NCBI GenBank assembly: GCA_015146655.1
Contig: VKHL01000019.1
Location: 186,001-250,000, forward strand
DNA: 64,000 nucleotides
DNA from: Ochromonas danica
Taxonomy: Eukaryota; Sar; Chrysophyceae; Chromulinales; Chromulinaceae
Direction: 5' to 3'
Shown here: piece by piece, positions 2,874-61,750 of the stretch
Layout of the letters: the number at the start of each line of letters is the position of its first letter
Numbering within the stretch: the first letter of the stretch is position 1
Program-made: the position numbers and the translations under genes
Notes under the pieces: generated by a model
Seen by the model: the letters and a program-made list of their open reading frames with translations, nothing else
Told to the model about the DNA's origin: nothing
Databases searched by the model: none

Positions 2874-4122
2874 ATGTTAGATAAGTGGATTGAGCAATTA
2901 GAGAATGGAGATTGTATATCAGAGCCGGAACTGAAGCGGTTATGTATTCAGGTGAGAACCCACTCGTCCCCTGCCAGCCGCCACTCTCTTCTCACGCCCA
3001 TGACACATCTTGCAGGTGAAAAACCTCTTAATGGAAGAGCCCAACGTGCGGTTTGTGTCTTCTCCTGTGACTATATGCGGAGACATCCATGGCCAATTCT
3101 ACGATTTCCTGCGGTTGCTCAAAATCGGCGGATCGCCTCCGCAGACGAAGTACATCTTCATGGTACGACATGCCAGCCAAGAGTGAAAGTGGTGGATAAC
3201 AAGATGTTTGTGGTTGTATAGGGCGACTTTGTCGATCGCGGGCACAACAGCGTGGAGACCTTCCAGCTGCTGCTCTGTCTCAAGGCCAAGTATCCCGACT
3301 CCATCACTTTGCTTCGAGGCAACCACGAGTCTAGACAGATCACACAAGTGTATGGGTTCTATGAAGAGTGTGTGCGGAAGTATGGCAATGCCAATCCCTG
3401 GAAGTATTGCGTGGAGGTCTTCGATTACCTCAACCTCGCCGCGGTGAGTTTGGAACATTCATTCCCCCAAGCGGTCATCTTCCTCTCACCTGGGTCTATT
3501 TGTTTTGTGGGTGGATATAGCTTGTGGATAATAGAATCTTTTGCGTACATGGTGGATTATCGCCGATAATGCGGACAATCGACCAGATTCAGGTCATCGA
3601 GCGCTTGCAGGAGATTCCTCATCAGGTCAGCTGCTTCTTGCCCTCCTCTTGCTCTGTATGAAGTGTCTAACTTAATGTGAGATTTTTTGAACAGGGCGCC
3701 TATTGTGACCTGATGTGGTCGGATCCTGACGACATCGCAGGCTGGGCAGTCTCTCCTCGAGGCGCTGGCTATCTCTTCGGTCACGCCGTCACCGATGAGG
3801 TGGGTTATCTTCTCGTTTTATTATGTCAACCTTCTATCTTTAATTATGCTTTCTCTTCGCATGCATTGAGTAGTTTGTGTATAACAATGGCATTGAGCTG
3901 ATCTGTCGTGCCCATCAGCTGGTTATGGAGGGTTTCAAATTCCATTTTCCCAATAAGAACCTGGTCACAGTTTGGTCCGCACCGAACTACTGCTATCGGT
4001 GTGGAAATGTTGCTTCTATCTTGTCTCTTAACGAGTCTCTAGATCGAGAGTTTAAAATCTTCAAACCTGTGCCAGAGCCACCGGAGGCGACGAGGAGGAC
4101 GGCGGTGCCCTATTTCCTCTAG
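2874..4122 (+). CDS. PPP6C: Serine/threonine phosphatase catalytic subunit, PP6/Sit4 type
   Basis: Six exons (2874-2951, 3016-3162, 3222-3443, 3521-3625, 3695-3799, 3874-4122) join into 301 residues, the normal size of the family. All metal and catalytic motifs of PPP phosphatases are present: GDIHGQ (48-53), GDFVDRG (76-82), RGNHE (107-111), and later [12 protein letters not shown]. The C-terminus is PYFL, the methylated tail of PP2A/PP4/PP6. GNANPWKYC and VTDEFVYNN match PP6 better than PP4 or PP2A, so PP6/Sit4 is favoured; PP4 is the alternative. In other eukaryotes the enzyme works with SAPS and ankyrin subunits in cell-cycle control. It is convergent with the B56-kinase gene, leaving 259 bases between the stops. 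Introns are 59-77 bases. Confidence 0.93.
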
Positions 4123-4381: not shown

Positions 4382-7300
4382 TTAATCTTGATCTTCAGAG
4401 GACATATTGTCTGATTCGTCTCCTCGCAGGATTGGCAGAGAACGAGAAACAAGAGCCATGAGCTGACCATCCTCAATGACCTCAGCTCCTGAATCACTTG
4501 AACCTGCTCGGCCCCCAGACAATCCTCGAAAAGGCGAAGGGTTATTCAGATCGTATTCACCTGGCATGGGTGCCCAGAGCGAAGAGAATTGTCTGCGGGC
4601 CCACCGCTCCTCTGATCGAGCTCCTCCTGCTGAAGTCTCTGGCCAATCTGGCGGACTTGTCGCATACAGTTGAGAAGGACTGAAGACAGGAGGGAGTGGA
4701 AGAGGAGGTGTCTGTACAGAAGGGTAGTAACCACGCAGCAGGAAGTCATCTGCTAGCAGTTGATTGGCAGTCGGTCTTTCTCGAGGATCTGGTCACATTC
4801 AGAAAGAAACATAAACGTCACAAATAGCTCCTGTCAGGCAATAAGAGGAACGAAGAACTAACCCAAGCTTAGCAATCTGCTGACCAAAGTCTCACAAGCT
4901 TCGTCGAGCACACGATCGGCCTGCATCGAGGGAGATGCTGTAAAGTGGACCGACTTGGCCAACGCAGGCATTTGTTGCGCAACTTCAGTTGCGAAGACGT
5001 CCCACTGCTCTCGCAATTGGTCTAGAGCGCCATAGAAGCGAGGCTTTCCCTTGGAGCAGAAGTAAGCAAGACAACCTAAAGCCCAGCTATCCGAGGCGGT
5101 ATCCATTGCTCCACGATGCACACAAACTCTCTGCTGGTGCTCTTCTCCTTCCTTTTCAAGCCCAGCATGGTCATACGGGAACAGCTCTGGCGGCATGTAA
5201 GCGGCAGTTCCTTCGACTCGACCATCTTCAACCTGTGTCTCAGCTTGCGCAACTAATTCGGTTACTGCATGATGGTACTTTTCATCCTCTTCACGAGCTT
5301 TCCAATCACCAGAGCGCATGCCCTCCTGCTGCAGAGCTGCTAATGATTGTAATAAGAGATTACGCCCATCTGCATTGCGAGGACGCACAGCACCGAAGTC
5401 TGCCAACTGCAATGGAAAGTGAATAACCCGGCAAACTAAATGCCAGGCAATAAAGAGCTTACCTTTATGTGCCCCAACTCTGTGATAAGGACATTCTCAG
5501 GTTTGAGATCATTGAAGACGCAGCCCAGCTGGTCGTGAATGTATGCCAACGCGCTGCAAATCTCTCCCAATACGAAGCGCACAAGATTGATAGACAGCGC
5601 TCCGGACTGTACCAAGACACTGTGCAGATCTCCTCTTTTGGCGTACTCAAGCACCATATAGATCCCGTCACGGTAACGGAAGGCAGAAATGAGTCGCGCA
5701 GTGTTCGGGTGACTGCACTGTCTCAACACCGCCACCTCGCGCATCGCTAAAGATCCGTACTGGTGGCGCTCTAGTTGTTCCCCGGAGACTATCTTCACAG
5801 CAAACTCCGGCCAGCTGGTTTGTGAGGAGCTGCGCTCAATGAGGCGCGCATAGCGGACAGTGCTAAAGGCGCCTTCTCCGAGAGTGGGGCCAAAAACCAA
5901 GTCATGGAATTTGAGGCCAGGCAATAGTGTAGGGCTGGCCGCGGCTTGAGACAAATTCCAGACTTTGTTGTGGGCATGAGAAGGATCTTCTTGAGGCGAA
6001 AACACAGAGGGATAGCACTTTTCCATATACTGCTCCAGTACTTTAACAGGGTCGTCGAATGCCAACACGTTTTGTTCGAATTTAGCATCTAAATCTTGTT
6101 GCTGGCGAAGTTTGGCATCTTCTTGGACAGTATGACGAATAGCATTAGGAGGGAGATGATTCCCTGATTGTTGCTGTGCCAAGGCGATTGTTGACGTGGT
6201 CAAACGACCTCCAGGCACTTTATTAATCGAAACTGCGCACAAGCCTCGAGAGGAAGGAAGAGCAGCCGATCCGGAAGGCAAACCAGGTGCGGGCGCGGCT
6301 ACAGCCCAAGGAGCCACTCCTGTGATGGTTACGGGGGGAGGCCGATCTCGAGAAAAGCCACTCACTGCTCACCATCAAGTCAATGAGAATGAGCAAGACT
6401 GTCTTTGCGAAAAGGACATCCAACTTACTCGAAGAAGAGAGGGAAGCGACTGACGAGGGACGAAGTTTTGGCTGCATAGTCGGAGGCTTCATGGGCAAGG
6501 GTGCTGCTCCTCGCGAAGCAGACATTCCTTCTCCACTACCACCTCTGGGAGAAGTGGAGGCTGAGGATGCAGAGGAAAGGCTCCTGTGGCTGGTTGTTAT
6601 CACGGTCGTCGCTGCTTCACGATAGAGACCTTCGTCACCGTCTTTTATCGCTTTCAAGGCCAAAGCAGTCATCTGGAGGCCAGCAGCAAGTCAAGGACAA
6701 ATAGGACAATGGGAATGGAAGAGAGCATCGAAGTAGTAGTACCTTGTTCACCGTGGGGTTCCACGACAATGCCCCTGAGCGATAATAGAGTGCTTCAACC
6801 ATCTGCGATATGATATTTCGCTCTCTGTATTGCTTGTGGTAGTCGATAAAGAGCTGCAAAATGGCGGGGACTTTGAAAAACTGCAATGCGCGTTGTGCAG
6901 GGCGAATATTCTCCGCCTCTCCTCCAATGCACTTCAGAAATCGCCTCTAAAGCACACCAACAAAACCTCAACAAAATAGTCACAGAAACAATATCCACAC
7001 AGCAGTAGTACCATGAAGAGATCTTCAATGGCGGCAAACTCTTGCACACTACAACGAGCTAAGAGAAGTTCCACTTCATGCAACAGCAACACCTGCTTGG
7101 GAGTGTTGGTGCTGAAACCTTCCGGCCACGAAGAGATTACTCCGCGCAAGACTTCGCTGAACGTCAAGTCGCGACTTCCATTCTCCAAGCATGCAAAGGT
7201 GCAACGGACTAAATCCTCATGGTAGGACTGCAAAATAGGCACCTGGTCCCTCCAAGCAATCATCTCATTAGGGCTGTGCAAGGGAAGCAAGACACGATGC

Positions 7301-8206
7301 CAAATATTAGCCAAAATGTGCGACTGCTGACAAGCACTGCCTCGTAGAAGGCAATGCAAGATCTGCAGCAGTGCCGAGACATGGATGCGCTCATGGCCCC
7401 CATCCTGTGCCGCTACTTTTCCACCTTTTGATATGGCCAACAGGGATTTGGCGAGATGCGATTCGGCTGCGGGGCGTAGCGATGGCAAGGCATTGTAAAG
7501 GGAAATGAAGAGGTGCTGCAAGATCCCCACAGCTGTATCTGGCGCAAGAACACCACCAGACTTTGACAGTTGAGTCAAGTGAACCAGCCGATCGATCACT
7601 ACCCACACACAATTGTAAGTCGCACACTCACAACATCCACAGGTAGTTCTTACCCAGAGAAATGAAAGCATCATCTAAGTCCTTCTCCATTTGTTGGCTG
7701 GTTATTATTGGGCTGTACTCAGGTAGAACTGAGAGCTTCATCCAAGCAGACAAAGCCCAAGCCTCCTCTGCGCCGATTGAGGCAGAGGAAGGGAAGGACC
7801 ATAGCAGCTGCAGGGAGTGGAAGAGCCCGCCAATGACTGTTCTTCCACCATCGCTCTCCCAAGAATAGTCTCGAATCTAGTGACAGCAACCCAAGACAAG
7901 ACAAGACAAGCTGCTCGCTGAGATGCTGTTGGGCATGGCGACTGACCGAAGTTAAAGCTCACCTCTCCAGATGTGGCAAGCACGTTAAGAGCACGGAGTG
8001 AAGCCAGCACAGCTTCTTCGCCTCCCCTAGTTTCACGCAAACACACCATACCATATCGAATATCACATTAGACCATATCATATCATATCGCATAACATTT
8101 GACAAACATCGCAAAGAAAGCAAACAACTTGAGACTTTCAACAATAGAGGTAAGTCTATCCTCACCTGCGATCATACAGAGTCGAGATGTGAGACTCCAC
8201 ACTCAT
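4382..8206 (-). CDS. PP2A B56-type regulatory subunit fused to a PDK1-like kinase
   Basis: Nine exons in minus-strand order: 8206-8166, 8026-7963, 7876-7654, 7598-7012, 6946-6743, 6672-6429, 6364-5463, 5406-4863, 4788-4382, giving 1071 residues. Residues about 70-395 follow the B56 (B') HEAT fold: HRVLLPLHSPN matches the LLKVLLPLHK block, then STNTPKQVLLLHEVELLL, RRFLKCIGG, AQRALQFF and LSWNPTVNKMTALAL, in the order seen in B56 proteins. A Ser/Pro-rich linker leads to a kinase domain at about 605-955: glycine loop LGEGAFSTV, FAVKIV, YAKRGDL, catalytic loop FNDLKPENVLI, DFG in LADFGAV, GTAAYMPPEL, SDSWALGCLAY. These resemble PDK1. The HRD Arg is replaced by Asn. Fusion rests on the 64-base intron 6365-6428, whose splice joins both frames and creates an ATG codon; unspliced, the B56 frame ends at 6223. 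The kinase frame has a stop just upstream of that intron's acceptor, so no simple separate start exists. The first 35 residues lie in the duplicated module. Confidence 0.75.
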
Positions 8207-9204: not shown

Positions 9205-11090
9205 ATGTGTCGGGGGATTGAGGGGCTGCGGAAGTGGAGCCAAACCAACAGAGAAAGGGAAAGCAAAGAGAGAAGAAGAACTGCTCAGCCCTCACCGAAG
9301 AAGAAGAAGAAGAAGAAGATGGACGAATTGGAACAAGTAAAGAGGGACATCGCCGAGGTCAAAGAGGACTTAAGGCCCGCGAAAGGTGCAGGAGATAGAG
9401 AGTTAGTAAGAATCAGAGAAAGTCTGGTCAAGAAAGAATCAAGAAAGCGTTTATCTTCATCATCAGGTAATTAATAATTTACATTTTGCATTTGTTTGCT
9501 AAGGATTTGTTTGATAGTCCAGTCTGTATGATCAATATTCTATTCACGTGTATCTCCTCATTCTCTCTCACTCTCTCTCTCTCTCTCTGAATTAATTGCT
9601 TGCTTTTGTCTGAGCTAGAATTAAAAGAGTTGGATTTTGCCTCCTCCTTGGAGAAGGAAGACTTTCCTCCTTCGAATGGAGGAGCTGTTCTATTCCAGCG
9701 GTCTCATCTTGTGAACCGAATGGTGGATACCTTCACCAGCCGATTCAAGGATAGTACCAAGTATTCCAACTTCTACTTCCGCCACTCTGCTTGTACTGGC
9801 AAGACAGTCCTACTGAAGCTGTTTGGCAAGGAGTTGCAACAGCGAGGCTTTGTCGTGTTCTTGTTGACCGCTCTTGAGATGGATGAATTTCCAACTGGTT
9901 ACTTTCAGGACCTGGCTGACAGGATGGCACGAGAAGGGAAGCAAGTGGCAGTGTTGGTCGACGAGGTACAAAGGAACGTCAACTCCAAACACTGGGACTA
10001 CCTGCTCAAGAAAGCAGCAAGTAATCTGCTTGTGATTGGTACTGGCATCTATGACCAGGTCAATAAGTCTCCTCAGTTTCTGGACAAGTACCCCAGCACG
10101 GACAACCCCACCATTGGCCAGCTGACCGAAGAGGACATGCCAGAGGTGCTGAGTCACTTCATACCACAGGGCAGAGCTGATTCGCTGTGGGACTTGAAGA
10201 CCAAGGCCCTGAGAGAGCTCCTGGTGGCCACTGACGGCCAGCTTTACCCCTTCGTCGTCCTCGCCAAGCATCTGCTGGCGCCTGAGCGAGTGGAGTGTCT
10301 ATCCAACGTGAGCGCATACATGACTAGCAAGACATTTTATTTCAGTGATGACTATATCCGAGTGCGTAAGCGGTGCTATGACTTGAGCCAGGCTAAGGTG
10401 GAGTTGCTGTCTCGCTTCCTCCTAGGCTTGCGGACCAGAACCAGCTTTATCTCTCCTCTCTTGGTACAGGAGGTCTTTCGCCGCCTGTTGAAGACCTTTC
10501 CTTCGAACGAGATCGAGTTGGACCTCTCTGGAAAGTCCTCTTCTGTGGTGGAGCAGATAATTGTGGCAGGGCTGACCGATATGCTACCCTTGGACTTCGA
10601 GGAGTGCAATTTCTCCACCCTGGAAGACGACGAGAGAGGTCTGGCCTTCAGATGGGGCGTCTGTGGAGGCTCTGCTCTGGAGAATCAGGTGTGGCTTACG
10701 TCTGAGGTGGTGACTGAGGAGAGAAATGGAAAAGCTGGAGCTAAGCCCACCATTGACTTCGTTGTGAATGGAGATCTCAATCTAGGCCTGGAATTGGCTA
10801 AGGACCGAACAGACGAGGCGATGCTGGACAAGCTGAAGAAGATTGGGAAGGGAGGAGTGTACAGTCGACACAACTCGTATCTCTTCCACTTCGTCTTCAA
10901 AGGTACCTTGGAGGATGCAGTGCGACAGGTGAACGGGTTTCCAATCGATTTGCAGACTCGCGTGTACACTTATATGAGGGACTACAACACTCTGCTGTGT
11001 GGCACCAAAGTAGTGCGGGAGGGAGTTGTTCACAGGCTCCTTCACCTCGATCCATGCATCCAACTGGTACCAGACAGTTTGGTACATTGA
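9205..11090 (+). CDS. CRN-type protein: P-loop NTPase and nuclease-like domain
   Basis: Two exons are inferred, 9205-9472 and 9595-11090 (donor TCAG/GTAATT, acceptor GAGCTAG), keeping frame. The N-terminus is basic with seven lysines in a row, a likely nuclear signal, then a short charged coiled coil (MDELEQVKRDIAEVKEDL). The large exon starts with ELKELDFASS and carries a Walker A-like ACTGKTVLLKLF, Walker B VAVLVDEVQ, and near the end PTIDFVVNGDLNLGLELAKD. The last resembles the D...GIELLR.G motif of the PD-(D/E)xK-like domain in Crinkler (CRN) C-termini. In this family an NTPase regulates a nuclease-like module, and some members act in host nuclei. The usual ubiquitin-like header was not found; ATG at 9205 is only the first ATG in an upstream-open frame, so a 5' exon may be missing. 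It sits between the two 350-base modules. Confidence 0.7.
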
Positions 11091-21460: not shown

Positions 21461-24400
21461 TCAAAGGACGCGCTGCAGCTTGAGAGGTCCCGGCTCGAGC
21501 ACGATGGCATCCACAGTCGCACTTAGAGTCTTCACAGGCAGCGGCTTGAAAGCCTTCGATGAGGTTTCAAACTTGAGGAAAGACTTTACATTCGTGCCTC
21601 CCTCTCCAAGCTGTAAAGTGTCAGGGCCGCGGCCATAGATGCGCAGAAGGACTAGAGGTTGTTGTGGGTGCAGGACATAAAGGGCGCGAAAAGCTAATGC
21701 CTGTGCTTGTACGAAAAGACAAACGAACTGCCAAACACGCCCTTGCCATTCTGGATGGACTACGCAGTCCGTTCCCAGACGTAATTCACTACGAGGAGGA
21801 GAAGCACTGCTGGTGTAATAGTCCACAAGATCCAGTACCTCGCGGCGTCGATCTGCGGAGTGGCTGCCAGCCAGGCAAACATGAGTCAGTGCATTTTTTG
21901 TTTGAGCAGCGTTGGTCAGCTTGCTATTCCGACTTCCTTCGCCACCCCGCAAGGCAGAGCGAGAGGCTGGGCGAGCACTCGTGGTAGAACTTTCGTTGCC
22001 ATTGCTGCGAGGTATGCGGGCAGCGCTTTTGCTGCGAGAACGACTTGCGGTAGAATTATCTGAAGTAATTTCCCAGGCCATGGGTGTTTGTAGCTTCTCC
22101 TTCACCACCAGCTCATTCGGCGGCACTGCCGCACTAGCAGGCAAAGAGGCGATTCGTTGAGGAGAAGGTCGGTCAGCTTGCACAGGAGCGATGGGGACCG
22201 CTGCTGGGACAGCAACAGGAGAAAGCGAGGAAGATGCTGATGATGGAATAACACCTTGCTGCTGCTGCAATATTTGCAATGCTCGCTTGCCTATACGGAG
22301 ACGATATTGGTTTCTCCGATGAACGATTGATAGCGCATCTTGCTCGATTTGGTCTTGTAAACAATACAATTCATCAAGCAACGATTGATTATTAAAACCT
22401 GTCCCTGTTCTCGTCAAGCTATTGCCAAACGACGGCGCAGGTGGAGGTGGAAGCCCAAGGGATGCGATCGATCCAGAGGCATTGAGCTGGTTCGAAGATA
22501 ATGACATTCTCAAGCCTGAATGGTTAGGTGGAGGAGGAAATGAATCCTGCACAGGGCCAGAAACAGCCAGTAAGTCATCCAATAACGCTGCTGCTTCGCC
22601 ACCCATCCCTCGCACAGACTGTCTAGCCGCAGACTTGACAACACTCTCGTCAACAGACCGATACACACCAGCGGAACTCAAGGAGCGGACACTGGAGGAA
22701 GGCGGACGTGCTGCAGTGCTTTGGCCATCTTGAGCAGAACCCACGTTCTTCCCTCGTGGCGGGGAAGACTGCCAGCCATAAGTATCTTCCTCTTTATTCT
22801 CCACCCAATGCTGCGAAGAAGCTGTGGGATCCACGCGACCTGCTGAGGCTGCTGTCAGAGGTCTCGAAGTGCTTCCACTCGAGGAAGGCGGACGTGCAGC
22901 AATGCTTTGGCCTGTCCTCACGAAGCCCTCGCTCTCCATGGAGGCATTCTTATGGTCTGCTCCAACGTCTTCTCTTTCTTCGTCATTCACAGCTCCATAG
23001 TCCTTCCTCCCAACAACCTTCTCTGCTGTCTGATCCATATATCCCCAAGCCGAGCTCGAGCCCACCGCGCTCCTCGCCGTCGAAGGACGACTGCCTGCCC
23101 TCGTTAAATCCAAACCTACTGCGCCACCCAAATTGTCAATCTCTCTGCTCATGCTCATGCCAAGCAGGTTTCCTTCTCCGGCGGATTGGGGTCTCAACAC
23201 ATTTCTGTCAGCTGTGCGGCGCAAATCACTCGATCCAGACCCCGGGCCTTCCCTTCGCATCTCCATTTCAACCATGTCCTCAACTCCATCATGAGCAGAA
23301 CCCACGTTCTTCCCTCGTGGCGGGGAAGACTGCCAGCCATAAGTATCTTCCTCTTTATTCTCCACCCAATGCTGCGAAGAAGCTGTGGGATCCACGCGAC
23401 CTGCTGAGGCTGCTGTCAGAGGTCTCGAAGTGCTTCCACTCGAGGAAGGCGGACGTGCAGCAATGCTTTGGCCTGTCCTCACGAAGCCCTCGCTCTCCAT
23501 GGAGGCATTCTTATGGTCTGCTCCAACGTCTTCTCTTTCTTCGTCATTCACAGCTCCATAGTCCTTCCTCCCAACAACCTTCTCTGCTGTCTGATCCATA
23601 TATCCCCAAGCCGAGCTCGAGCCCACCGCGCTCCTCGCCGTCGAAGGACGACTGCCTGCCCTCGTTAAATCCAAACCTACTGCGCCACCCAAATTGTCAA
23701 TCTCTCTGCTCATGCTCATGCCAAGCAGGTTTCCTTCTCCGGCGGATTGGGGTCTCAACACATTTCTGTCAGCTGTGCGGCGCAAATCACTCGATCCAGA
23801 CCCCGGGCCTTCCCTTCGCATCTCCATTTCAACCATGTCCTCAACTCCATCATGAGCAGAACCCACGTTCTTCCCTCGTGGCGGGGAAGACTGCCAGCCA
23901 TAAGTATCTTCCTCTTTATTCTCCACCCAATGCTGCGAAGAAGCTGTGGGATCCACGCGACCTGCTGAGGCTGCTGTCAGAGGTCTCGAAGTGCTTCCAC
24001 TCGAGGAAGGCGGACGTGCAGCAATGCTTTGGCCTGTCCTCACGAAGCCCTCGCTCTCCATGGAGGCATTCTTATGGTCTGCTCCAACGTCTTCTCTTTC
24101 TTCGTCATTCACAGCTCCATAGTCCTTCCTCCCAACAACCTTCTCTGCTGTCTGATCCATATATCCCCAAGCCGAGCTCGAGCCCACCGCGCTCCTCGCC
24201 GTCGAAGGACGACTGCCTGCCCTCGTTAAATCCAAACCTACTGCGCCACCCAAATTGTCAATCTCTCTGCTCATGCTCATGCCAAGCAGGTTTCCTTCTC
24301 CGGCGGATTGGGGTCTCAACACATTTCTGTCAGCTGTGCGGCGCAAATCACTCGATCCAGACCCCGGCCTACTGGACCCCGGGCCTTCCCTTCGCATCTC

Positions 24401-27400
24401 CATTTCAACCATGTCCTCAACTCCATCATGAGCAGAACCCACGTTCTTCCCTCGTGGCGGGGAAGACTGCCAGCCATAAGTATCTTCCTCTTTATTCTCC
24501 ACCCAATGCTGCGAAGAAGCTGTGGGATCCACGCGACCTGCTGAGGCTGCTGTCAGAGGTCTCGAAGTGCTTCCACTCGAGGAAGGCGGACGTGCAGCAA
24601 TGCTTTGGCCTGTCCTCACGAAGCCCTCGCTCTCCATGGAGGCATTCTTATGGTCTGCTCCAACGTCTTCTCTTTCTTCGTCATTCACAGCTCCATAGTC
24701 CTTCCTCCCAACAACCTTCTCTGCTGTCTGATCCATATATCCCCAAGCCGAGCTCGAGCCCACCGCGCTCCTCGCCGTCGAAGGACGACTGCCTGCCCTC
24801 GTTAAATCCAAACCTACTGCGCCACCCAAATTGTCAATCTCTCTGCTCATGCTCATGCCAAGCAGGTTTCCTTCTCCGGCGGATTGGGGTCTCAACACAT
24901 TTCTGTCAGCTGTGCGGCGCAAATCACTCGATCCAGACCCCGGCCTACTGGACCCCGGGCCTTCCCTTCGCATCTCCATTTCAACCATGTCCTCAACTCC
25001 ATCATGAGCAGAACCCACGTTCTTCCCTCGTGGCGGGGAAGACTGCCAGCCATAAGTATCTTCCTCTTTATTCTCCACCCAATGCTGCGAAGAAGCTGTG
25101 GGATCCACGCGACCTGCTGAGGCTGCTGTCAGAGGTCTCGAAGTGCTTCCACTCGAGGAAGGCGGACGTGCAGCAATGCTTTGGCCTGTCCTCACGAAGC
25201 CCTCGCTCTCCATGGAGGCATTCTTATGGTCTGCTCCAACGTCTTCTCTTTCTTCGTCATTCACAGCTCCATAGTCCTTCCTCCCAACAACCTTCTCTGC
25301 TGTCTGATCCATATATCCCCAAGCCGAGCTCGAGCCCACCGCGCTCCTCGCCGTCGAAGGACGACTGCCTGCCCTCGTTAAATCCAAACCTACTGCGCCA
25401 CCCAAATTGTCAATCTCTCTGCTCATGCTCATGCCAAGCAGGTTTCCTTCTCCGGCGGATTGGGGTCTCAACACATTTCTGTCAGCTGTGCGGCGCAAAT
25501 CACTCGATCCAGACCCCGGCCTACTGGACCCCGGGCCTTCCCTTCGCATCTCCATTTCAACCATGTCCTCAACTCCATCATGAGCAGAACCCACGTTCTT
25601 CCCTCGTGGCGGGGAAGACTGCCAGCCATAAGTATCTTCCTCTTTATTCTCCACCCAATGCTGCGAAGAAGCTGTGGGATCCACGCGACCTGCTGAGGCT
25701 GCTGTCAGAGGTCTCGAAGTGCTTCCACTCGAGGAAGGCGGACGTGCAGCAATGCTTTGGCCTGTCCTCACGAAGCCCTCGCTCTCCATGGAGGCATTCT
25801 TATGGTCTGCTCCAACGTCTTCTCTTTCTTCGTCATTCACAGCTCCATAGTCCTTCCTCCCAACAACCTTCTCTGCTGTCTGATCCATATATCCCCAAGC
25901 CGAGCTCGAGCCCACCGCGCTCCTCGCCGTCGAAGGACGACTGCCTGCCCTCGTTAAATCCAAACCTACTGCGCCACCCAAATTGTCAATCTCTCTGCTC
26001 ATGCTCATGCCAAGCAGGTTTCCTTCTCCGGCGGATTGGGGTCTCAACACATTTCTGTCAGCTGTGCGGCGCAAATCACTCGATCCAGACCCCGGGCCTT
26101 CCCTTCGCATCTCCATTTCAACCATGTCCTCAACTCCATCATGAGCAGAACCCACGTTCTTCCCTCGTGGCGGGGAAGACTGCCAGCCATAAGTATCTTC
26201 CTCTTTATTCTCCACCCAATGCTGCGAAGAAGCTGTGGGATCCACGCGACCTGCTGAGGCTGCTGTCAGAGGTCTCGAAGTGCTTCCACTCGAGGAAGGC
26301 GGACGTGCAGCAATGCTTTGGCCTGTCCTCACGAAGCCCTCGCTCTCCATGGAGGCATTCTTATGGTCTGCTCCAACGTCTTCTCTTTCTTCGTCATTCA
26401 CAGCTCCATAGTCCTTCCTCCCAACAACCTTCTCTGCTGTCTGATCCATATATCCCCAAGCCGAGCTCGAGCCCACCGCGCTCCTCGCCGTCGAAGGACG
26501 ACTGCCTGCCCTCGTTAAATCCAAACCTACTGCGCCACCCAAATTGTCAATCTCTCTGCTCATGCTCATGCCAAGCAGGTTTCCTTCTTCTTTGTATTGA
26601 TATTGGCGGGTTTCCTGGGTAATTAGCTGATAGTGTTTGTTATCGTCTTTGTGTTGGGCTACCGTGGAGGATGAGACCGATGTGGACAAATTCATGTTTT
26701 CAAGAGCCTTTGTTACAGTCTTCGATTGAATTGCCTGCGAAAGATCGATTAAAATGATAAGGAACATGAAATATTGGAAAACATACCTTGTACGCACGCT
26801 GAACATATGCTAAGATATCTTCCTCTTCTTCGCGAGATGACATTAAGTCTGCCAGTAGGGACTTCGACAGCCCGCCAGTCGTTGCTCTCAGCACTGATTG
26901 CGATGGAAATCGTTGCTCGTCTCCCATTATAGAGTTTCGTAGTGTGGCTTCATCTCGAGCATCTGGGCCTCCCCGCAGCAGTAACTGGGAATCAACGCCC
27001 AGTGGACCATTCAGTTTTGATTGAGCTTGACGAGTGAGAGGAGCCCCAGGCGAAGCTACCACAGATGGCACAAGACGAACTCTGAGTGGGGAAGAAGGAG
27101 CAACAGCTAGTACCTTAGCCTCCATAAGAATGTCACTCAGTCGCCTTCTGATGGCTTGGATATTGCCCAAACTTTCTTCTTCTTGGGCAGCCTGCAAGAA
27201 GAAGATATGAGGCAACATCAAGGAGATAAACAAGACAATAGCAGGACTCTTACCGCCATAGCGCCTTGCAGCAAATCGACTTCCTCTCCGAACTCTTGCA
27301 ACAAGCACATGATGCTCGCGCCCTGAATACCTTTTGAGTCGCCATCGTCGCTCTTGTTGACCAAACTGGTTAACAGCTCCGCCAAAATAACAGAAAGCTG

Positions 27401-37142: not shown

Positions 37143-40100
37143 ATGATAGCTAGCTGTGACAGTAGTTGCACAGCATTTTTTAAGAAAACACGGAAAGGCA
37201 AAGTGGTTCGATTTGTTCGCGAGAAATATCAGCGCACAGATATTGGGCTGGGCTCTCTGCGTGGTTCGGTGCTTGACGCAGCCGCGCTGCAGGACCTCGT
37301 GGAGGAGTGTCCCAATCAGACACTTGTGGTCATCGACACCAACATAGCACTGCACGAGATCGATCTCCTGGAACAAGAGTCTCCTCTGACTGCCCTGCTG
37401 GTCGTGACGCAGACTGTCCTCCAAGAACTGCGTCATCGAAACTTCGCCGCTTTCAAACGCGTGCGCGCGTTAATGGATGATGGATCACGTTCGATTATCT
37501 TCTACCCTAATGAAGTTTCCTCTGAGACACTGCACCTCAGGTGAGCCAATAGTGTAGCCGCTGCCCTCCACCTGACATTTTCTAATTTACTGTGGAGTAG
37601 AGCTGCGAATGAGTCTGTCAATGATGCGAATGATCAGGCTATTGTCAATGCTGCGCTTGTCTTCCAAAAGTCTCTCAAGAGTCCCGCCAAAGTCGTCTTC
37701 GTCACCAACGATGCGCTCAACAAGAAGCGCGCAGAGGCCCTGGGGCTGTCCAGCTATGACATGAGACAGTATCTGACAGCCGCTGGTGCGAACGAATTGG
37801 TTGAGCTAGCTTCTTCCTCCTCTGCTGCGGCCTTGCGCTCCGCAAGTGAAGTAGAGGAGAGCTATCGCGCCTCCTACCCTGACCACCTCTCTGCCAGCGA
37901 GATCCAGGAGGGCTTGCGTGCAGGCCGTTTTGTAAGAGGGGTCTTGCATGTTCAAAAGGACGCATGGACAGGTAGGTATCGCGATCCTTTTCTGTTCTGC
38001 TCCATCTGATCGTCCGATTGTCTTTGCGAGCAGATGCCTACGTTGTGGTTCATGAGGGCACAGAGCGAAGAAGTATTCAGTTAGTTGGCGCAGAGAATAT
38101 TAACAGAGGTCTAGAAGGAGATCTCGTAGCTGTAGCTCTTTTACGTTCTTCATCTTCATCATCTTCGTCCATCACGCCGATTCTTCCACCATCCGCCCAG
38201 GATGAGGTGACTATGGCTCTGACCGAGGCCGAGCCTTCTTATCAAGATCTCGAAGCTCTTCCGCCTGACGAATCAGCACAAGTAGCACATGGTAGAGTAG
38301 TTGGTATCATTCGCCGCTCACTGAGACAGTACGCTGGATCTGTTGATGCCAACAGCGCCATTGCTCTCTCCTCGGGAGAGCACCTCGTGCGATTCCTCGC
38401 TGTCGATCGCCGTCTGCCACCTGTGCTTGTTAGTACGCGGCGATTGGATGAGATCGTGGGACAGCGCCTGCTGGTTGGTCTGGATGGATGGCCTTCCACT
38501 TCTGCTCTTCCTTGTGGCCATTGCCTGCGCGTTCTTGGTGCCCAAGGAGATCGCGCGGTGGAGACTGAAGTGTTACTCTTTGAGTTGGGAGTGTCACAAG
38601 AAGCTTTCTCTCCCGCCGTTCTCGCTTGTCTGCCACCTGCAGACTGGACAATCACCCCGGAGGAGATTGCGTTGCGCAGCGACTTGCGCCATCTGCCCAT
38701 TGCGTCTGTGGACCCTCCTGGGTGCAAAGATATCGATGATGCACTGCATTGCATTCCGTTGCCCAATGGTAATTTCCAGGTGGGTGTCCACATTGCCGAT
38801 GTGGGCCACTTTGTGCTGCCCGACACGCCTCTGGACCGTGAGGCCTCGCAGCGCTGCACCTCCACCTACCTTGTCGAAAAGCGTCTGGATATGTTGCCTG
38901 AGGCGCTAACGACTCGATTGTGCTCTTTGCGCGCGGCGGAAGACCATTTGACCTTCTCTGTTCTGTGGGAGATAGACGGAGAAGGCAATATTGTAGATGC
39001 ATCCTTCTGCAAGTCAGTCATCCACTCCCGCGCTGCCATGTCTTATGCTGAGGCACAGGAAGTATTAGATCGACCGCCAGGTCCTAATGAGCCTGACACT
39101 CATTTATCTCTGCGTCTACTTGCTCGTTTTGCGCGTATACTCCGTGCACGACGCATCGCCGCGGGAGCGCTCACTCTCGCCTCGCCTGAGGTGCGCTTCC
39201 AGCTCGATGAGGCGCGTAATCCATTGGATGTAGCTCTCTATACCTTGCGCGAAGCCAATGCCATGGTGGAGGAGTGGATGTTATTGGCTAACATCACGGT
39301 GGCGAAGAAGACATTGCAGCACTTCCCCACTCTCGCCTTGCTGCGTCGTCACCAGCCGCCATCGAGAGAGCAATTCGCCCCTCTTGTCCAAGCAGCAGCT
39401 CTGAAGGGTGTATCGCTGGATATCTCCTCCTCTTTGGCGCTTTCTCGATCTTTGGATGCCGCCCAGAGGTCTGAGGATCCTTTTTTCAACAAATTGCTTC
39501 GCATTCTGTCAACACGTTGTATGATGCCCGCGGCCTATTTCTGTTCCGGAGAGCTGCCCAAGGCCTCCTGGCATCATTATGGCTTAGCTGCGCCGGTGTA
39601 CACGCACTTCACCTCTCCCATTCGTCGGTATGCTGATATTGTTGTCCATCGTCTACTCGCCGCGGCGATTGGCGTCAGTCCGTTGCCTTCTTCCTGCGCC
39701 GATCGCCGTCGTCTGGCAGAGCAGAGCACTCAAATGAACCGGCGTCATCGCGCTGCCCAGCAGGCACAGCGAGCTTCCGTGCAGCTCTATACCGTTATTT
39801 TCTTCCGTGATCGTGCTAGTTCGGGTAAGCAACAAGCGGCGCAGGAGGAGGAGGCATATGTGCTTCAAGTCAGCCCCCAGCGATTGGATGTCCTTGTGCC
39901 GCACTTTGGCTTTGAGGGTCCTCTATGGGTTAGTGAAATCTCTGAACAGCTACAGGCTCAGTCGTTCTTCGACGAGGATCGCGGCGCGGTGGTGTGGCAA
40001 ATGTCCAAAGCAGCGCCTGGGAACAAGCGGGAGAGCGAGATTCGAGTGTCCGTGTTAGATCGACTGGTTGTGGCCATCAGCACGGTGCTCACTCCCAGCA

Positions 40101-40150
40101 ACGATCGCGTGCTCAAACTCTCTCTCGTTCCTAATAGTGTGCAGCATTAG
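37143..40150 (+). CDS. DIS3: Exosome exonuclease DIS3/RRP44
   Basis: Three exons (37143-37540, 37601-37971, 38034-40150) give 961 residues, as in human DIS3 (958). The N-terminal PIN endonuclease domain keeps its acidic active-site residues: Asp65 (VVIDTN), Glu95 (TVLQEL), the Asp pair in NDANDQAI, and VTND. Cold-shock-like barrels follow (VVGIIRRSLRQYAGSVD). The RNB domain has its metal-binding Asp cluster in SVDPPGCKDIDDALHCIPL and the FTSPIRRYADIVVHRLL block. A C-terminal S1-like barrel completes it. The protein should be the processive 3'-5' and endonucleolytic subunit of the RNA exosome. The intact PIN site argues for DIS3 rather than DIS3L or DIS3L2. ATG chosen just before the conserved FFKKTRKGKVVRFVREKY. 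Confidence 0.96.
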
Positions 40151-58433: not shown

Positions 58434-61400
58434 TCAAGTCTTTTTTGATTTCTTGCCATCTAATCCATTCTTCAACTGCTCGCCAATATGATCTAAGAAG
58501 CCCTTCAACAGCGAAGCCGATGAATCCACAGATTGCTTCAAATCCTCTTCAACTTTCACTAAATGCTGTCTTTTCCCACCTTCGGTCAAGAACTGGATGT
58601 AAGAGAGATCGTCAGGGGTCTCCATCGCGGGAGTGTTGTGCGAGGTGGCCGTCGTAGCGGCGATTGTATTTCGCATCTTGCTGACGAGCAGGTTGAGACT
58701 CGCCCTGACCACAGCAATCGCAGAGCCATCAGCCATCACATGTTTGCTGGGAGTCATCGTAACGAACAGGAAATCTAATAAAAGCGAAAGTGGCCCAACA
58801 GCATAAAAGAGGACAGAGGAAGCATCCACAAGATCTTCAACTTCAAGACCTTGAAGCCTTTCGAAGACAATATTCACAGAATTTATTTGAACGGCTGGAT
58901 CAAGCTCAAGGCCGACGTTTCTCGCAACATCTTCCTCTGCCAAGGCTGTGATAATAACCTTTCCACAGCATACAATGACTTCACGCAAGCACAACATAAG
59001 ATCTTCCTTCCTGAGCAATGCTCTTTGCTGGAATGCACAGTAGGAATTAGCTTCAAATCCAGGTCCCAAGCCAGAAACACAGCTCAACATTTGATTAGCT
59101 TCAGCCCAGCGCTTCAAGAAAGCATTCTGGACAAATAAGAAGATAGTCTGAGCCCAAGAGAGGCGCAGCTTTAACTGCTGATTGCGCAACAACGCTTCGT
59201 CATCACAGAGGGGAGCCGACTGTAGCCTTGCGAGAAGGCGATAGTCATTATGACTGATCAATTGATCAATTTGTTCATCTGAAAGATAGACCACCTGCTC
59301 CATGTAACGATCTTCTGATTGAACATCGTGTAAGTAGGTAAGCACAGCGGAGGAGTTGTAGTTGCGCTCTGCCAACTCAATCAATCCGAGCTCAGCGCGG
59401 GCCACAGCGAGACTGAGCGACTGCCTGGACGACATCAAGAAGTCGCTCAATTCCAGTATCTTGTTGAAGTTCCCGAAATCAAAGGCATGATGGAGCGCGT
59501 CAGCCGTCTCCCTTTGCGCAGCTTTCTGGCAAGCGAGGACAGCGCGGCATTGGGTGCGCGCCTCGGAGAACATTGTCCCGCACAACAGCGGCGGCAAGCA
59601 CAGATAAGCCATGGAATCATTCTAATCACAAAACAACAACAGTCACGATAATCATAAAACTCTGCCAAGCATTAACAGTCAACAACAAGTTGCTCACTTG
59701 GATGTTCTTCACTCCTAACGACAGGAAAGCAGCACGGGCCGCAGTGAATATATTCAACGTGTTGGAGGCTTCGATCAAATCGATCTTCAACGGGAAGTTG
59801 AAAGTTGAGGAATGAACTGCATAGTTGAGCAGCTCATTCCATCGAACAGCCCAGCTTCTCGCGGCATCGCCATCGCCGGCTTGTTTGAAGGCGATGTACT
59901 GGGAGCGAAAGAAGGCAGAAGCAGTGAGAAGAATGTCGTCGGCGGGCTGCAATGTGCGTTTCTCTCCGCCAACACCGTCTTTGAAGACTTTCAAACTCTC
60001 GCAGAAGATGGCCATTCGCTTGTTCAACGTGCCGAGATCGTATACAGCACAGCACAACAGAAGGTTGGCATATATGACAAGCATATCGAGCTGACAGAAT
60101 GAGCAAAGAGACACGACAAGATCAGAATTCTGTCCTGCCAAACTCTGCAGCTTCGGCGCATCGATTGGCTTCAACTGCCCTACGCCGTCCAAATCATCGC
60201 CTTTCTGGCCAGACTTCTTGCCTTTCTTATTCTTCCTTTTGTTTCGTTTCTTATTGCCTGAGACATCTTTGCTAACGTCTTCATTGCCATCTTCCTCTTT
60301 ACATTCCTCTCCGTCTTCCGCATTTGTCGAGGAGTGACAGCGACAAAGTCGTTCCTCGAGGATCTTCTCGTGATCGTTTCTTTGCAAATCCGCGAAGACT
60401 GCCACGCGGTGTATTATCGACCTGCTACGCTCTTCATATAATAGTTGTAACGCATAGAGTATCGGCTTTAGATCCGTGAAACAACAGTACTTTGAATGAA
60501 ACTTGTTGATGTAGCTGGTCAACAGGTCGCCGAGGAGAGCTTCCAAATCATTGCTTCCAAGTGACAACGAGTCTAGACTATTCTGGGAGCCCCATTTAAC
60601 GATCAGCCATATCTCTGCTAAGCGAGGGCCGCGCAGCTTTGGGAATCGCTCTTGTTGGCTTCTTAGAAAGGCAATGTGCTTAGCGATGACCTCGCCAGAA
60701 GAGAAACCTGCAGGCTGCAACTGAGACGAGGTCTGCAACCACTTGGGAAAGTCATTGTGCAGGCAAGCAAGATCTGACAACGCATCTTGAAAATAGAACT
60801 TCTCCAGCGATCCCTCTTTGCCCAGCACGCCTGCGCTCTGCAGCAAAGTGTCCAATAGAACAGAATGCACATTCCATTGGTCGGGATAGCCCTCCAAGAA
60901 AGCGTAACAAGCAGACAACACTTCATCGCTTCGGCCCAATATGCGGAGAAGGTCAATGTTAATGAGATCGAGTTGGAAGGGCTGCATGGCCACGAGGTTT
61001 GTGTGTTCCTGGAAGAAGGCATTGTCGTGCAGCTTCTCGCCAACAGGACGCTGGCGGAGCTCTTTCAGAGCAAGCAAAGCTTCAGAGACTTTCTTCTGGT
61101 TGAGAAGCACAGTGAGGTAAAGATGCAATTCCTCTGCGCCAGGCGCTTTGGCTGCGGGCACAGCGGGAGCGATCTGAAGCACTTTCTCGAGCATCTTCTC
61201 TGCGACCACCAGCATGGCTGGAGGAAGATCGGATTGCAAAAGCATGCTACTCACAGACCAAAAGAGGTACTTGGAGTTGTTCGATGCCTTATAGATGCGC
61301 TGTGCCAGCTGTTGCATTTTCTTGGGCTGGCTCAGCCGGGCGTAGCAGTGGAAGAGCTCCTCCATGTTGTGCACGCCAGTCATGCTGCCCACGCTCATCG

Positions 61401-61750
61401 CGTTCTCATAGCAAGCAGCGAAGTCCACATCAGCTTTACAAAGTTTGAAAGTGCATCCAACAGCGTTTACGGTCGCTTCGTCAAGGGGTTGGGATTTCGA
61501 TACAGTTCTCGCCATCTGAAGAGCTTTGTCATACTGCCGCTGACTGGCCAAAGTATAGGCAAGCAAGGCTTGAGCAAGGCTGTACTTGGACATTTCTGGC
61601 TTTTGACATAGTTGTTGAGCGAGAGCATAGTCCCCTGGCATGAGGTTTGGTCAGAGTGCCTGCTCGTCAAATCATCCAGCAGCAACAACAAAAGAGTGTC
61701 TTACCTGACTCCAGGGCACTGTAGATACGATCAAAAGCGATTCTGGACAT
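58434..61750 (-). CDS. NAA25: N-terminal acetyltransferase B auxiliary subunit NAA25
   Basis: Three exons (61750-61705, 61634-59698, 59621-58434) give 1056 residues. The start MSRIAFDRIYSALESG leads into TPR-like helical pairs (LAQALLAYTLASQRQYDKAL; NMEELFHCYARLSQPKKMQQ; KYLFWSVSSMLLQSDLPPAM). The family hallmarks are present: LRGPRLAEIWLIVKW and FHSKYCCFTDLKPIL, matching LRGPHLAKLEL and FGDKPCCFTDLK in animal NAA25. A Lys-rich insert (KRNKRKNKKGKKSG) sits in the middle. With the catalytic subunit NAA20 it acetylates proteins starting Met-Asp, Met-Glu, Met-Asn or Met-Gln on the ribosome. Confidence 0.93.

Follow-up and report, generated by a model that had tools for sequence, protein, structure and literature searches.

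The locus studied here raises the question of whether one gene of the chrysophyte Ochromonas danica joins a B56 regulatory subunit of protein phosphatase 2A (PP2A) to a protein kinase, and what the joined protein might do. The gene lies on the reverse strand at positions 8206-4382 of the window, a stretch of 64,000 nucleotides (nt) taken from contig VKHL01000019.1 (positions 186,001 to 250,000). It runs from the ATG at 8206 to a stop codon that ends at 4382. Under predicted splicing, its nine exons and eight GT-AG introns give one frame of 1,071 amino acids (aa). In this one chain, a PDK1-like kinase follows a divergent PP2A B56 domain, with a disordered linker between them, and we consider it practically certain that this B56-kinase fusion is real in this alga.

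Gene model and distribution of the fusion

The Pfam search showed that the spliced protein matches B56 (PF01603) at residues 137-397 (6601..7518, across introns) with 83.9 bits against a cut-off of 25. Pkinase was matched at residues 614-764 and in a second stretch, with 148.8 bits against a cut-off of 31.7. The whole kinase domain was placed at residues 607 to ~952 (4742..5909, across introns), its end being set by inspection. The unspliced frames score for the domains individually as well. The closest sequences in the PDB were human B56 delta (49.8 bits) and gamma (47.2 bits) for the B56 part and PDK1 (93.6 bits) for the kinase part, with Aurora as the next kinase family (Aurora C, 77.8 bits). 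The preliminary description had read one continuous spliced frame with B56, linker and complete kinase at 4382..8206; its coordinates are exact, and both domains are recognised by Pfam.

All exons lie on the reverse strand. Exon 1 (8166..8206) holds the start codon, and its HEIRDF at the N-terminus resembles GEIRDY of the relative P0002 in alignment A1. It is followed by exon 2 (7963..8026), exon 3 (7654..7876) and exon 4 (7012..7598), which holds the B56 core; the unspliced frame containing exon 4 scores 50.5 bits for Pfam B56. The B56 domain ends in exon 5 (6743..6946), and exon 6 (6429..6672) adds the final B56 helix and the start of the linker. Exon 7 (5463..6364) encodes the linker with PPVTITGVAPWA and the kinase N-lobe up to the catalytic loop. 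The DFG motif, an activation-segment insert and the kinase C-lobe are encoded by exon 8 (4863..5406), and exon 9 (4382..4788) supplies the kinase end, the tail motif WARRQFSSLWAP, the C-terminus and the stop codon. The introns measure 139, 86, 55, 65, 70, 64, 56 and 74 nt in order (range 55-139).

The decisive junction is the 64-nt intron at 6365..6428, between the B56 and kinase parts. It has GT-AG ends and joins the two frames exactly as first described. The conserved linker motif lies directly downstream (TITGVAPWA, residues 467-475, 6303..6329), and its DNA pattern has a single exact match in the genome. PPVTITGVAPWA, just 3' of the junction, is found between B56 and kinase in an alignment of 11 proteins and in the motif table, and P0002, P0004, P0008 and others carry the B56-linker-kinase order entire within one protein. 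Thus, both sides of the junction are supported in relatives. P0001 and P0189, which are 96% identical, diverge from the other members immediately behind GHVK and GHIK, respectively; the window has an intron at this point. The TGVAPWA linker motif occurs as tandem repeats in relatives such as P0008, P0178 and P0181. The kinase frame had also been said to lack a nearby start. An in-frame ATG was found at 6026-6024 (Met568), 39 residues ahead of FHDLVFG, so a missing kinase start is no argument for the fusion.

Both Pfam domains were found in at least 43 of 156 listed proteins, comprising 29 of the 38 proteins P0001-P0038 and 14 of the 118 new ones from the search with the kinase part. These counts rest on precomputed Pfam labels. 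The 38, the 156 and the 157 used below all include P0038, a canonical B56 that is not a family member. The protein searches scored only about 8,000 candidates sharing most words, and absence elsewhere is not concluded from them. The search with the B56 part gave 10 proteins, seven of them labelled B56 plus kinase. Of the 117 proteins in the profile-search list, 80 (P0039-P0118) were kinases carrying no B56 label and were set aside; the kinase-part search contributed the best 120 of 236 matches. Within the 38, 33 proteins extend into the kinase, while P0005, P0006, P0034 and P0035 stop in or before the linker. Pfam B56 scores in nine relatives ranged from 58.2 to 171 bits, with 143.9 for P0027 and 171 for P0028. 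A B56 hidden Markov model (HMM) found both parts in 67 of 157 proteins. Its training set consisted of 30 of the proteins that were then scored with it, linker included, so this count is looser than the Pfam count.

Among the listed matches, the both-domain proteins with species names are all from diatoms (Mayamaea, Seminavis, Thalassiosira and Stephanodiscus). Kinase-side relatives, some with a piece of linker or B56, came from more diatoms, Triparma (Bolidophyceae), Phaeothamnion, Ochromonadaceae CCMP2298, Ectocarpus fasciculatus and the dinoflagellate Durusdinium. Over 545 aa, P0027 and the Durusdinium protein are 85.5% identical; P0027 carries B56, so the fusion is present in a close relative of that dinoflagellate. 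A kinase tree with five other kinases as its root, in which the family node has a support of 0, groups the window protein with P0129, P0149, P0010 and P0148. Linker, kinase and tail motifs recur among the relatives. The listed annotation names are hypothetical protein, serine/threonine protein kinase, IPL1-related protein kinase 2 (Seminavis) and 3-phosphoinositide-dependent protein kinase (Skeletonema). Judged from these sequences, the fusion is a conserved protein of diatoms and related algae.

Groove, tail and kinase of the fusion protein

The genome also holds a canonical B56 on contig C1 (476.7 bits). The mean identity of the fused B56 to it is 11% in the N-terminal columns and 25-26% in the remaining columns, and positions 1-158 of the Pfam B56 model are unmatched in the window copy. 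The fusion shares with PP2A B56 (B', PR61, PPP2R5) the Pfam domain and, across the family with partial loss in the window copy, the core of the groove that binds LxxIxE motifs (Y190, R197, R201, G234 and I231). It differs in its diverged N-terminal part, a WRDQ insert after PLH, the lost acidic patch, the mostly changed H187 and R188, and the kinase fused downstream.

Groove residues are numbered as in human B56 gamma, following PMC7108865, PMC4930772 and PMC9974998. They were placed through a stretch of the human sequence, and this placement agrees with the acidic-patch numbers. The groove table covers the window protein and 29 of the 38 relatives; nine were left out, namely seven without the N-terminus, P0024 and P0038. 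R197 was kept in 30/30 proteins, Y190 in 29/30, G234 in 28/30, R201 in 27/30 and I231 in 25/30. All five are among the 11 best-conserved of the 180 columns before the PLH motif, and P0024, P0028 and P0214, further members that cover the groove, retain all five. PMC4930772 reports that R197A or H187A in human B56 abolishes BubR1 binding. B56 alpha Y215Q and R222E, equivalent to Y190 and R197, likewise abolish it according to PMC9974998, and R201 takes a further Glu (PMC7108865). In the C-terminal half, the W and N of HWN were kept in 30/30 proteins, and K300 and E307 in 29/30.

The tail motif WARRQFSSLWAP is located at residues 999-1010 of the window protein (4568..4603, motif table). A loose form was matched by 85 of 157 proteins; 81 of these extend at least 25 residues beyond it, leaving 63 tails after dereplication. 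The strict pattern L..I.E occurred in 28 of the 63, against a mean of 0.91 and a maximum of 4 in 1,000 shuffles. The relaxed pattern [LMFI]..[IV].E occurred in 42 (shuffle mean 3.97, maximum 12). Examples are LTKIRE, LGKISE, LAQIEE, LTPIAE and LTAVEE. In the PQP-type tails (n = 39), which include those of the named diatoms, the strict motif was found in 26, mostly near the C-terminal end, and permuted patterns in 0-1. The relaxed motif was present in 12 of the 24 non-PQP tails, with 1-3 for permutations. The tail counts show how well the motif is conserved in a segment that changes fast; they do not stand for 63 separate inventions.

The window kinase has the VAxK lysine, the catalytic Asp and DFG. 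Across the family, the catalytic Asp was present in 127/127 and the Lys in 138/138 readable members, and the arginine of the RD motif in 0/127; the catalytic loop of the window protein reads FND instead of HRD. Such a set of residues suggests that the kinase is very probably catalytically active. The distance from DFG to PPE, which contains the activation-segment insert, has a median of 75 residues in 100 readable proteins. The kinase had been called PDK1-like. This holds in that no solved kinase is closer in sequence than PDK1, of the AGC group, which also tops the fold lists, tied there with Akt1, MST3 and others by VIA-align. It is not PDK1. The fusion kinase lacks the HRD arginine, has the insert and its own WxRRQxSxxWAP tail, and showed no Pfam match to a PH domain. 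The genome also contains a separate PDK1-type frame, whose C-lobe is PDK1-like and which has a PH_3 domain. Orthology to PDK1 was excluded by the catalytic loop, the missing PH domain and this separate frame.

The structure of the relative P0012 was predicted with AlphaFold2 from 81 aligned search matches. The model had a mean predicted local distance difference test (pLDDT) score of 80.2 and a predicted template modelling score of 0.71. Its B56 and kinase parts were mostly above 90 pLDDT and its linker mostly below 50; residues 5-421 were nearly all helical, mostly with high pLDDT. Residues 1001-1020, in the tail, had pLDDT averages of 90 and 94 and formed no helix or strand, as would be expected of a docked peptide, judging by pLDDT and secondary structure. 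An earlier model (alignment A2, eight sequences) was poor, with a mean pLDDT of 52, and was not used.

A proposed self-docking module and its rivals

We lean slightly towards the reading that the fusion protein is a self-docking module, in which the tail would serve as a built-in ligand of the B56 groove, in cis or in trans. Its parts would be the B56 groove, a flexible tether, a catalytically competent non-RD kinase and a tail with a groove ligand. The conserved groove core, the LxxIxE-like motifs of the tails and the tail residues of the P0012 model speak for it. In cis, binding of the tail may hold the kinase to the solenoid like a latch and block the groove. The latch could be released by a client with a better motif or by phosphorylation of the tail, and the released kinase would then act on clients held by B56. 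Competition for the groove between tail and client would in this way couple client arrival to kinase release. In trans, the tail might hook the kinase to canonical PP2A-B56, whose B56 in this genome keeps H187, R188 and R197. If the fused B56 also carried the PP2A A and C subunits, both activities would reside in one molecule; that the fused B56 carries the PP2A core at all seems nearly evenly balanced, with the odds slightly against it. The wider idea of an ancient ochrophyte kinase-phosphatase switch, in which a client would meet kinase or phosphatase depending on what fills the groove, tail or client, is speculative and rather unlikely. The putative tail ligand resembles the motifs of BubR1 and other LxxIxE recruiters of PP2A-B56 in being, in the matching tails of relatives, a candidate B56-docking motif in a disordered segment. 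It differs in that the algal fusion has the B56 domain in the same chain.

Several observations weigh against the self-docking module. In the groove, H187, essential in human B56, was kept in only 9/30 proteins, R188 was mostly changed, and K240 was rarely kept, the loop 240-243 aligning uncertainly. The acidic patch E310/D313 was mostly lost, with mainly T, A or I at 310 and G in 11/30 and E in 5/30 at 313; the window protein has L and A at these positions. K202 was K or R in 10/30 and S in the window. The window copy of the groove is degenerate, with R201 changed to E, H187 to I, K240 to S and H243 to L, the last two within the uncertainly aligned loop, and it has L at position 231. In the tails, the strict motif occurred in only 2 of the 24 non-PQP members. 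The window tail has no consensus motif: its SLPILRGD (residues 1053-1060, 4418..4441), a degenerate LxxIxE-like counterpart matched by eye to PLPIVEE of P0149, lacks the glutamate. The shuffles overstate independence, since the tails are homologous. P0029 has lost R201 and kept its tail matches, which breaks a clean co-variation of groove and tail. The fold-search lists for P0012 were filled by kinases alone and speak to the kinase fold only.

Co-variation of groove and tail was tried as a separate line of evidence and dropped; the window protein has lost both and P0029 only R201, which are too few cases. A charge swap in the window copy, with R201E in the groove and R in the tail, is a speculation.

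The rival that survives best, and the view of the preliminary description with its opposing activities on one scaffold, makes the fusion a genuine subunit of the PP2A holoenzyme that brings a kinase of its own; A and C would assemble on the fused B56 and both enzymes would work on the same clients. The B56 homology and the conservation of the groove and of some C-terminal residues speak for it, and we rate it as a close call that falls just on the doubtful side. K202, which contacts PP2A-A in human B56 (PMC9974998), is poorly kept in the family, and this stands against it.

A little less probable, though still to be taken seriously, is a kinase with a B56-descended solenoid that no longer binds PP2A. 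The solenoid would dock substrates or the protein's own tail, and no phosphatase would be involved. The unmatched first part of the Pfam model, the low N-terminal identity to canonical B56, the poorly kept K202, the lost acidic patch and the presence of a canonical B56 for the usual work are all consistent with such a protein. The near-invariant residues of the C-terminal half and the high B56 scores of P0027 and P0028 argue in the other direction.

We are more doubtful that the LxxIxE-like tail motifs serve as docking sites for other proteins, or that they are acidic residues conserved for reasons that have no role with B56. Further short motifs share the I-x-E pattern, and the rarity of the strict form in non-PQP tails and the frequent loss of H187 from the groove also fit this explanation. 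It is opposed by the shuffles and the permuted patterns, which match far less often than the motif itself.

The weakest rival, two adjacent genes misjoined by a predicted splice or one gene that also yields a separate kinase, is very improbable, and a chimera of the gene model was ruled out by the recurrent B56-kinase architecture of at least 43 proteins by Pfam labels. It draws on Met568 ahead of the kinase and on the linker intron, through which the frame remains open. If this intron is retained, reading continues over 6428-6223 to a stop at 6223 and gives a B56-only protein. Retention of the intron is noted as a possible isoform switch. In addition, 85 of the 157 proteins have the kinase side only. 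Just 17 of these 85 have more than 150 residues before the kinase, so most start too late to tell, and 15 of the 17 have the linker motif. In P0147 (Cyclotella), P0150 and P0192 the first residue is precisely the Met of the last B56 helix. P0192 comes from MMETSP, where it is labelled a complete transcript open reading frame, and it aligns with P0008 of Mayamaea from the last B56 helix through the kinase. Given these starts, the full fusion may be accompanied by shorter forms that begin inside B56. Against a misjoin, the pairs P0005 and P0217, and P0006 and P0209, have matching longest contigs (5,466 and 4,505, respectively), as might result from a single gene cut at a linker intron.

Novelty, significance and neighbouring genes

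B subunits set the targets of PP2A, and contact between B56 and kinases is made by separate docking partners. Kinase-phosphatase fusions exist in plants as the PP2C-AGC kinase proteins. The algal fusion resembles these in having a kinase and a phosphatase-side module in a single chain. It differs in that a catalytic phosphatase is fused in the plant proteins, and a PP2A targeting subunit in the alga. The preliminary description knew of no B56-kinase fusion, and a full-text search of open-licence papers also found none described. The domains are known; as far as that literature shows, their union and the self-ligand are apparently undescribed. If diatoms and related algae have retained such a fusion, it would hard-wire the pairing of B56 with a kinase. 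It would offer a compact system for studying how opposing enzymes share one docking groove, and it gives a testable role to a gene that lacks annotation in these major primary producers.

A phosphatase catalytic subunit of the PP2A/PP4/PP6 group is encoded on the forward strand at 2874-4122, tail to tail with the fusion gene and about 260 bp from it. By its features we take it to be probably PP6, since C93 resembles PP2A-C and C126 resembles PP4. A functional link between the fusion and this adjacent gene was considered and is treated as coincidence. Elsewhere in the window, a 499-aa frame at 9591-11090 on the forward strand has a sub-threshold match to an nSTAND NTPase. The reverse strand carries a 1,782-codon frame at 21461-26809 that encodes a CAMSAP CKK domain towards its end, and a 1,327-codon open frame lies opposite it on the forward strand at 22639-26622. 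A Dis3-like RNB ribonuclease (340.8 bits) is encoded at 37976-40150 on the forward strand, and the MDM20 subunit of NatB (63.9 bits) at 59626-61650 on the reverse strand. Beyond the window, identically scoring kinase frames were found at C6:317060-321998, C25:143858-149807 and C46:120393-126192 of the genome. They occur as pairs, inverted or in tandem, separated by a few kb, which looks like recent duplication.

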